Origin: an uncultured Pseudomonadales bacterium
GTDB lineage: Bacteria > Pseudomonadota > Gammaproteobacteria > Pseudomonadales > Porticoccaceae
Direction of reading: 5' to 3'
Length of the DNA stretch: 64,000 bases
Assembly: GCA_943788895.1 (NCBI GenBank)
Contig: CALSRZ010000006.1
Coordinates: 1-64,000, forward strand
Below the pieces are notes generated by a model. It did not search any database, was not told where the DNA came from, and saw nothing but the letters and a program-made list of their open reading frames with translations. Within the stretch, counting starts at the first letter, position 1, and the number at the start of each line of letters is the position of its first letter. Made by a program: the position numbers and the translations under genes. Below are positions 11,310 through 44,470 of this stretch, in pieces.

Positions 11310-11333
11310 GATTTTGGTGGGCCGTGATGGATT
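11300..11333. repeat. Direct repeat copy 2, overlapping the 3' end of tRNA-Lys
   Basis: Identical over 34 bases to 10196-10229. This copy is embedded in the complete tRNA-Lys gene and half of its terminator, so it is the original. The other copy is a duplicated fragment. Confidence 0.85.
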
Positions 11334-11389
11334 CGAACCATCGACCAATTGGTTAAAAGCCAACTGCTCTACCGCTGAGCTAACGGCCC
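11315..11389 (-). tRNA. tRNA-Lys (anticodon TTT)
   Basis: A 75-base cloverleaf on the minus strand: acceptor GGGCCGT pairs with ACGGCCC, discriminator A, and an encoded CCA at 11315-11317. The D stem is GCTC/GAGC, the anticodon stem GTTGG/CCAAT around loop CTTTTAA, and the T arm GATGG-TTCGAAT-CCATC. It follows queC by 39 bases on the same strand, with its own promoter and terminator. Its 3' end is duplicated at 10196-10229. Confidence 0.97.
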
Positions 11390-43524: not shown

Positions 43525-43679
43525 ATAGCCTCTGTAGATCCCCTTGAGATCGGTCCCATAAGTTTATAATTTTCAGCGCTCCCGCAACTCGCTACGCTCA
43601 AACAGGCGCTCGCTCAACCTGAAAATCATAAACTTATAAGCGGGCCCTGACTGATCTCAAGGGGATCTACAGAGGCTAT
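43525..43679. repeat. Long palindromic element, copy 1
   Basis: This lies in the 350-base gap between ubiX and the GFA gene; the rest of that gap (43373-43524) holds nothing I recognise. A perfect 27-bp outer stem (43525-43551/43653-43679) encloses an asymmetric internal loop and a 19-bp inner stem with one mismatch (43558-43576/43619-43637), then a 42-nt apex (43577-43618). The apex is 39/42 identical to that of the second copy at 44211-44367, read in the opposite orientation. The stems differ between copies but stay paired. See findings. Confidence 0.85.
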
Positions 43680-43722
43680 TTGCAAGACTCGCAGATTCTG
43701 AAAGCTAAACTAAGCCTTATTT

Positions 43723-44115
43723 TTAATAGAGTTTGCACCAATTCTTCTTACGGCGTGCTAGACGCATACTTATGGTTTCAGTGGAATAATCTTTTAAAAC
43801 TGAATCTATGGAATAGCCCTTAAGCCCCATAACTTTTGCATTGATAACTCCATAATTATCGCCATCAATCTGGCAGGACACAAATGCAGTCCCACAGTTT
43901 TTGCATTCGTGGAAATCTGCGGTTTTATGGCCATGCTGGACTATTACATGGTCGGATGGGTTATTGATTTTAAAGCTAAAGCTTGAACCCGAGTCACTCA
44001 CATACTCTCCAGAATTTTTTCTACAGTATTCACAGGAGCATGAGCGGGCAATCAAACCTTGAGGCTTAACATCCCAGTCGATTTGGATATTTTTACAGCT
44101 GCAAGAGAGTTTCAA
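43723..44115 (-). CDS. GFA/CENP-V-family zinc protein
   Basis: A 130-residue protein of the glutathione-dependent formaldehyde-activating (GFA)/CENP-V fold. The zinc-binding cysteines appear in order: C5 and C7 (CSC), C26, C28 and C31 (SCSCEYCRK), and C71 and C74 (CKNCG). The family includes S-hydroxymethylglutathione synthase, but many members have no known reaction, and I do not assign one. The gene is flanked on both sides by oppositely oriented copies of a ~155-bp palindrome, and neither neighbour appears to be its operon partner. Confidence 0.85.
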   Translation of the reverse strand: MKLSCSCKNIQIDWDVKPQGLIARSCSCEYCRKNSGEYVSDSGSSFSFKINNPSDHVIVQHGHKTADFHECKNCGTAFVSCQIDGDNYGVINAKVMGLKGYSIDSVLKDYSTETISMRLARRKKNWCKLY

Positions 44116-44210
44116 AATACACCTCGAAAGTAAGTTATCCTGTTAAAGGTAGAACATATTTTTAAAACCAAAGATTAAAAAACGATACCAAAGCCCACTC
44201 CAATAATTCA

Positions 44211-44367
44211 AATAGCGCCTGTCTCTTCCCTTGAGATCAGTCAGGGCCCGCTTATGGATTTGCAATTTTCAGATTGAGCGAGCGCTTGTTTGAGCGAAGC
44301 GAGTTGCGGGAGCGCTGGAAATTTCAAATCCATGGGACCGATCTCAAGGGAAGAGACAGGTGCTATT
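44211..44367. repeat. Long palindromic element, copy 2 (opposite orientation)
   Basis: It occupies the gap between the GFA gene and the MDR gene. The outer stem is 28 bp (44211-44238/44340-44367, one G-T pair) and the inner stem 19 bp (44254-44272/44315-44333, one mismatch and one wobble). The 42-nt apex (44273-44314) has the GAGCGAGCGCTTGTTTGAGC core. Conserved blocks CTTGAGATC, GGTCCCAT and AAGCGGGCCCTGACT are shared with copy 1 after reverse complementation. Confidence 0.85.
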
Positions 44368-44398: not shown

Positions 44399-44470
44399 CG
44401 ATCTCTCGTCGCTTTGCTCTGTCGAGATGACAGGTTAAACGGGCCACAGCCGACGCTGGGGTGACATTCC
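44399..44470. repeat. REP-like palindromic repeat, second location
   Basis: It contains GATCTCTCGTCGCTTTGCTC running into GTCGAGATGACAGG, and CAGC-CGAC-GCTG followed by GGGTGAC. It shares the GAGATGAC and CGCTGGG.TGAC words with 28603-28662. It directly adjoins palindrome copy 2 and the end of the MDR gene. Confidence 0.5.

Follow-up and report, generated by a model that had tools for sequence, protein, structure and literature searches.

Two palindromes in a 64,000-nucleotide stretch of DNA (the window) from a marine bacterium belong to a real, apparently selected family of strand-specific hairpins that most likely act as single-stranded DNA. Computation revealed a dispersed family with defined helices and bulges, maintained pairing, a strand bias, a mini-hairpin at the apex, an orientation that goes with GC skew, flips in place and one loss by recombination between arms. 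With about even confidence, we regard the palindromes as non-autonomous dispersed elements that work as a single-stranded DNA hairpin formed by the strand reading TGTTTGAGCGNAGCGAGTT at the apex, hereafter the folding strand; its complement carries AACTCGCT.

Two inverted palindromes at the GFA site

The earlier note had placed both palindromes correctly, on opposite strands, and the near-identity of their apices was reproduced, with 3 of 42 positions differing between the copies (Table 1). Taken as a 158-nt inverted pair, copies 1 and 2 are 83% complementary. Complementarity within the two copies is 97% and 94% for the outer arms (31 and 32 nt) and 95% and 89% for the inner arms (19 nt). The single-strand DNA fold of copy 1 far surpassed those of 200 shuffles, none of which reached it (z −10.9). 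The only Rfam match in the window at gathering score was a tRNA gene at 11318-11389 on the minus strand.

Table 1 Features of the palindrome site, in window coordinates
Feature	Position	Strand	Remark
Copy 1, whole palindromic element	43525..43679	+	AACTCGCT apex strand on +; proposed folding strand −
Copy 1 outer stem, left arm	43525..43551	+	27 nt, GATC at end
Copy 1 middle stem, left arm	43552..43557	+	6 nt
Copy 1 inner stem, left arm	43558..43576	+	
Copy 1 conserved apex	43577..43618	+	42 nt
Copy 1 mini-hairpin GA GC [GTA] GC GA	43589..43599	−	proposed folding strand
Copy 1 inner stem, right arm	43619..43637	+	
Copy 1 right-arm bulge AAGC	43638..43641	+	
Copy 1 middle stem, right arm	43642..43647	+	
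Copy 1 right-arm bulge TGACT	43648..43652	+	
Copy 1 outer stem, right arm	43653..43679	+	27 nt
GFA-family gene (PF04828), between copies 1 and 2	43723..44115	−	in G033; not in G017 or G038 at the site
Copy 2, whole palindromic element (core)	44212..44366	−	AACTCGCT apex strand on −; proposed folding strand +
Copy 2 mini-hairpin GA GC [GAA] GC GA	44292..44302	+	proposed folding strand
CGTC-REP-like repeat adjoining copy 2	44400..44431	−	read by eye; the motif pattern misses it

In the window's own genome (G000) the order of the site is ubiX, copy 1, GFA, copy 2, quinone oxidoreductase. G033 retained GFA and copy 2, with copy 1 reduced to a 41-bp relic. In G017 the GFA gene is gone and one hybrid element is left, in which copy 1's left arm is joined to copy 2's body and right arm and the arms now match poorly; the simplest reading is a deletion through directly repeated arms rather than an inversion. 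G038 has neither element nor GFA and offered the only element-free site, one too diverged to define boundaries. The suggestion that the opposed copies might invert the GFA segment found no counterpart in these four genomes: the gene points the same way in G000 and G033, and G017 and G038 lack it. The other 26 ubiX loci of the genus contained no GFA, element or oxidoreductase in the fetched stretch and have no bearing on the site.

A dispersed family with a common architecture

The genome (SAR92 genus, Porticoccaceae; 1.95 Mb in 6 contigs, 93.1% complete) yielded 11 copies in a BLAST search with copy 1, including the two in the window, and 16 matches to a covariance model. At E ≤ 0.001, model R1 matched 25 of 94 genomes (own included), namely three outside the window's genus and 22 of the 50 within it. 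This bears out the earlier proposal of a dispersed element, with copies both across the genome and in its relatives. Our working set held 102 matches (99 unique, 3 of them from G057 outside the genus), taken from 80 fetched regions and the own-genome loci; it was drawn from the best model matches, and weaker copies are under-represented. A half copy in the own genome (L013 1501-1534) is cut after GGTCCCA. Three tandem copies with a 190-bp period occur in G041 (L088 2524-3060), where the orthologous site is single-copy in G022 and G036. Around an inverted element pair (L090, L091), G020 and G040 are identical over about 3.7 kb, through either recent transfer or assembly mixing.

All 11 own-genome copies could be aligned to the same architecture. 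A 27-bp outer stem carries GATC at its end, and pairing soon stops beyond it. On the right arm only, a bulge TGAYT (or near variant) and a second bulge AAGC (or near variant) flank a 6-bp middle stem on its two sides, followed by an inner stem of 19-20 bp and an apex some 42 nt long. A single position of the middle stem is mostly mismatched, in 8 of the 11 own-genome copies and 57 of 85 distinct copies. The outer-stem sequence is nearly free while its pairing is kept, and many outer columns show all four Watson-Crick pairs.

ERIC and MITE elements have a similar size and intergenic dispersal. The arms of the present element differ in not being fixed in sequence, a comparison made for ERIC by description only. 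Of the earlier note's ERIC/MITE-like assignment, the dispersal stood; the genomes compared gave no recurrent neighbouring gene family, transposase link, target duplication or fresh insertion. Across 155 loci (L137-L251, L333-L372), no cluster of neighbouring ORFs recurred at more than 7, and by eye the top clusters look like common families. In these genomes, the element was linked to no transposase, no integrase and no gene beside it.

Matched changes in the stems

Stem covariation, originally claimed from two copies, holds on both larger sets. In the 11 own-genome copies, 94.3% of 575 cells across 53 pairs were paired, and 34 pairs showed a change on both sides, a number reached in 0 of 500 shuffles. 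Both-side changes amounted to 114 cells as against 33.3 in shuffles, and 2 cells had changed on one side to another standard pair. The second set comprised 85 distinct copies, 84 from other genomes together with L096, an own-genome copy unused in model building; its alignment was made to fit the structure, with 76 of 91 searched loci included. Here, 52 pairs had 91.5% of 4411 cells paired and 953 cells changed on both sides, compared with 272.8 in shuffles and 138-205 in slid controls. Further copies thus exist and their stem changes are largely matched, although 8.5% of cells still have no standard pair, 57 of these at a single middle-stem position.

Orthologous copies show how such changes accumulate with divergence. 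With flanks at least 93% identical (n = 5, L070/L085 excluded from the pair sums), we counted 3 double and 8 single changes, with flanks at 88-93% (n = 9) 19 double and 24 single, and with flanks at 76-83% (n = 16) 138 double and 55 single. The 16 pairs at 83-88% were left unsummed; they include L085, L110 and L131, whose out-of-register arms (at the model ends) inflate single changes. The shift from single to double changes fits stepwise compensation; the 76-83% group contains replaced subfamilies, and part of the trend may reflect subfamily replacement.

Mismatches point to the proposed folding strand

A palindrome acting only as double-stranded DNA is expected, by symmetry, to carry equal numbers of G·T and A·C mismatches. 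In 96 copies, the AACTCGCT strand of the outer stems contained 81 A·C and 30 G·T mismatches and 61 transversions (p 1.4e-6; identical local contexts collapsed, 3 copies skipped for badly matched arms), with 18 columns leaning to A·C and 4 to G·T. Re-registering the arms, which shifted 8 copies and dropped one of these (L110) and is unfit for orthologue comparison, gave 90 A·C, 28 G·T and 59 transversions in 98 copies (p 9e-9). G·T-type wobble is therefore commoner on the opposite strand, where whole arms showed 146 G·T and 48 A·C mismatches. The bias had the same direction in all four gene contexts (smallest: 9 vs 4 and 15 vs 1) and thus goes with the element. By reasoning, known deamination asymmetries would push it the opposite way. 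Outside SAR92 the bias was weak (104 A·C vs 74 G·T, summed over three other sets), and the G164 family displayed none (sense strand: G·T 13, A·C 19; collapsed, 17 copies).

The same data bear on whether selection is needed at all, since template-switch (quasipalindrome) correction during replication could copy changes from one arm to the other. Such a process would account for the excess of both-side over one-side changes in the own-genome set (114 against 2), as well as the pair L006 and L057 (flanks 90% identical), which differ by six double changes and no single one. It should, however, favour no wobble type, contrary to both mismatch counts, and should erase the constant one-sided bulges. 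In addition, the closest orthologous pairs have more single than double changes, and the G017 hybrid keeps its badly mismatched arms. We therefore consider template switching a rather improbable explanation of the pairing. Selection for base pairing, as the earlier note had proposed, is favoured because one wobble type predominates on one strand and because single changes prevail in the closest orthologues and double changes in diverged pairs, the latter possibly in part through replacement.

A mini-hairpin at the apex

On the folding strand, 98 of the 99 unique copies contain the apex core GA GC-loop-GC GA or a close variant (pattern tolerating up to 4 substitutions). The loop comprises 3 nt in 44 copies and 4 nt in 54; its first base is G in 93, its last base A in 95, and both hold in 92 of the 99. 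The inner closing pair C-G is replaced by T-A in 6 copies and by T-G in 1, and the second closing pair G-C by A-T in 2, which leaves 8 copies with one of the two G-C pairs as T-A or A-T. In passages of PMC4686876, mini-hairpin DNA whose GNA or GNNA loop is combined with two or more G-C pairs is called extraordinarily stable; passages of PMC6479982 also mention GNA loops. The G..A loop of 3-4 nt that marks extra-stable DNA mini-hairpins in those passages of PMC4686876 is the one present in the 92 copies.

Among the 54 tetraloops, a purine occupies the third position in 7 and a pyrimidine in 47 (p 2e-8 against one half, treating copies as independent), so GNRA can describe only a minority of them. 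DNA parameters give the folding strand the lower energy in 95 of 99 copies, a result not independent of the apex and mismatch evidence, and RNA parameters favour the same strand in 94 of 99. Since both parameter sets agree, energy alone cannot separate DNA from RNA; we prefer single-stranded DNA because the loops are of the GNA/GNNA mini-hairpin type and mostly not GNRA.

Orientation towards genes and replication

Judged by simple ORF calls, the copies are mostly intergenic (4 of 99 overlap an ORF of at least 150 aa) and prefer gene 3' ends. The 93 classified copies (6 lay at edges) fell into 44 convergent, 45 co-directional and 4 divergent gaps, while 99 background gaps included 11, 57 and 31, respectively. 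In co-directional gaps, AACTCGCT was on the coding strand 37 times and not so 8 times (p 1.5e-5), with ratios of 27:6 and 26:8 at other cut-offs. Three other sets showed no bias to gene direction (14:15, 6:6 and 5:3).

The G-rich strand carried AACTCGCT at 78 of 96 loci and at 16 of 16 in the one-contig genome G022, with GC skew taken from about 2.5-5 kb per locus, not from whole replichores. At convergent sites, where coding is nearly balanced, AACTCGCT was G-rich at 35 of 45, and the intercept of a regression over 91 loci persisted once the coding excess was removed (t 4.96). By the usual convention, a G-rich AACTCGCT strand makes the folding strand the leading-strand template. Passages of PMC5371416 report the attC bottom strand of sedentary integrons placed likewise in 25 of 30 cases.

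Among 47 orthologous pairs of single-copy sites, 38 had the element in the same orientation and 9 were flipped; the flipped pairs share sites and do not amount to nine events. The inverted piece was about the palindrome itself for L003/L100 (171 bp), the palindrome plus about 56 bp for L058/L098, and about 486 bp bounded by inverted GTCAT-type repeats for L006/L099. The same site may also hold different subfamilies in different genomes, as in L006 and L128.

These results can be set against a structured RNA, which the earlier note had offered as one possible identity: a transcript of the TGTTTGAGCG strand, or an mRNA 3' end, would fold and act in regulation or mRNA protection. Covariation combined with wobble pairs commoner on one strand is a classic sign of RNA, and both the RNA energies and the mostly intergenic positions near gene 3' ends would suit such a role. 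We nevertheless judge it unlikely and do not favour that identity. With a pyrimidine where GNRA needs a purine, 47 of the 54 tetraloops break the rule, and GNA triloops alternate with GNNA. Moreover, the folding strand is antisense to genes in co-directional gaps, orientation follows GC skew even after the coding correction, and the element matched no Rfam family at gathering score (one sub-threshold miRNA match, 20.9 bits against 211).

Occurrence of the apex beyond the genus

The apex pattern was found in at least 115 stretches of the genome collection, and among those listed are records titled Patescibacteria, Nitrospira, Bacteroidales, Burkholderiales, Marinobacter and Acetivibrio; many of the records are metagenome-assembled genomes, one marked as contaminated, which makes single phylum assignments soft. 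In other phyla the apex recurs inside unrelated inverted arms. The arms flanking it aligned left to right at a score of at least 40 in 48% of 172 cases (some Porticoccaceae included), compared with 3% for shuffled partners. We make no claim that the cross-phylum bearers are one family by descent. In the class sample, a shorter apex pattern occurred in 30 of 369 genomes and 25 of 272 genera (own genus included), and the reversed pattern in 0 of the 369 genomes.

In other genomes of the class (L342-L347, L353-L372), the apex is frequently part of a longer element of another kind. The outer portion of that element resembles CTTTTCTTTG..CAAAGAAAAGTAACCAAAAGAAAGG, a hairpin of purine tracts with an additional, third run of purines, and the element occurs several times as close inverted pairs.

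Carriage by phages or plasmids was rejected on record searches with a 32-nt apex query at E ≤ 0.1, which is short and misses diverged forms: 50,697 phage records gave no match, and 72,556 plasmid records gave only a 21-nt piece in two. Three stretches with the exact apex pattern were present in viral contigs. Judged from titles and the starts of abstracts, no listed paper was about this element; six apex strings had text matches in 4 papers, and the 3 of these that were listed were unrelated.

Relation to attC sites, REPs and candidate enzymes

By the tests run, the element is of the same general kind as attC sites and REPs and a member of neither; its mobility and function are proposed. As in attC, one strand's folded structure would be recognised, little sequence is conserved, and the computed single-strand fold has one-sided extrahelical bases and the leading-strand-template orientation. 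An integron-like attC site with GFA as its cassette is nonetheless very improbable, and membership was largely refuted: the copies around GFA are inverted to each other, and a conserved apex with a variable outer stem is the reverse of attC, which conserves the ends. The element is also dispersed and mostly single, and 49 genomes of the 50 in the genus yielded no integron integrase. With a cut-off of E 1e-30, the integrase was detected only in G011 (G011:C3:150064-151011), a genome with 3 element matches, and not in G000; it was rejected as a partner.

GTAG REPs, processed by TnpAREP (RAYT), are likewise dispersed intergenic palindromes, handled single-stranded and strand-specifically, some of them bulged, according to PMC8266576. 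They measure 20-50 nt as opposed to about 155 bp, and by eye the element has no GTAG tag (many arms begin ATAG). RAYT/Y1_Tnp was also rejected as a partner: there was no match in G000, nor in G022, G033, G039 and G041, Y1 transposases occurred in 8 of 50 genus genomes, and these were not linked to the element.

CGTC REPs, which include Neisseria dRS3, offer a further comparison. Passages of PMC3733652 (2013) describe them in several phyla, as hairpins of 20-40 bp said to be without a dedicated transposase. In our reading, the GTCAT-type repeats of SAR92, many with the same GAGCGNAGCGA core as the element, resemble CGTC REPs and often adjoin the element, lying within 120 nt of 32 of 95 copies. 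The element itself differs from these short hairpins in its 27+6+19-bp stems and a length of about 155 nt, and by eye shows no CGTC at its arm ends.

The small solo type-b GIY-YIG nuclease, which we take to be the family called Ssn, is the best candidate for a partner enzyme, inside SAR92 only. Of the 50 genus genomes, 8 carry its gene, one of them as a fragment at the end of a contig; they make up 8 of the 13 with at least 7 element matches and 0 of the other 37 (p 2.4e-6), a test that is not independent as the genus genomes are related. The YhbQ type is present in most genus genomes and carries no information. GTCAT..GGATC repeats lay within about 1.5 kb of the type-b gene at 9 of 9 genus loci (L294-L302) and 21 of 30 class loci (L303-L332), compared with 1 of 24 YhbQ-type, 2 of 9 Y1-transposase and 10 of 27 ubiX loci. 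The GAGCGNAGCGA-type core was found near the gene at 7 of 9 genus and 12 of 30 class loci and at none of the controls; motifs of this type numbered 28 in 25.6 kb of genus type-b loci and 0 in 73.7 kb. The type-b protein could be the missing enzyme of CGTC REPs.

Together with the repeats adjoining the element, these associations raise the tentative possibility that the palindromes are substrates of this nuclease and longer relatives of the CGTC REPs flanking its gene. The repeats at ubiX loci show, however, that such motifs are not confined to the nuclease gene, and the fetched surroundings of the gene contained no palindrome. Five genus genomes with at least 7 matches lack the type-b gene, G000 among them, whose single match (E 3.8e-7) is at the level of the YhbQ type. 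G164, with 32 apex matches and 100% completeness, has one GIY-YIG protein, of UvrC size, and no solo GIY-YIG; only proteins of UvrC size were found in G199, G262, G343 and G395 as well. At class level, 4 of the 30 genomes with the apex had type-b (at least 60 bits), as did 69 of the 339 remaining ones. The nuclease was thus rejected as a universal partner: the link holds in the genus and fails in the class.

Discussion

Under the preferred reading of a single-stranded DNA hairpin, a structure-reading protein would bind the folded strand through its capped apex and bulges, by analogy with integrases at attC sites and TnpAREP at REPs. Copies might spread and flip by way of single-stranded DNA during replication, and the leading-strand-template orientation may be favoured because it hides the folding strand. 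A broader proposal, which we advance only tentatively and think somewhat doubtful, is a cross-phylum class of chromosomal single-stranded DNA hairpins, with GNA/GNNA apex and free arms, that would be mobilised by an undescribed structure-reading enzyme. Such a class would need neither integron integrase nor Y1 transposase, would have no gene of its own and would keep its replication orientation despite flipping.

Stem covariation is usually read as a sign of RNA. Here, strand-resolved mismatches, loop type and replication orientation point to DNA, and together they offer a simple computational way to separate DNA from RNA folding. If the interpretation is true, a structure-read DNA element would stand beside attC and REP, with an apex that occurs in 25 of the 272 genera sampled in the class as well as in records of other phyla, and its partner enzyme would be a findable target.
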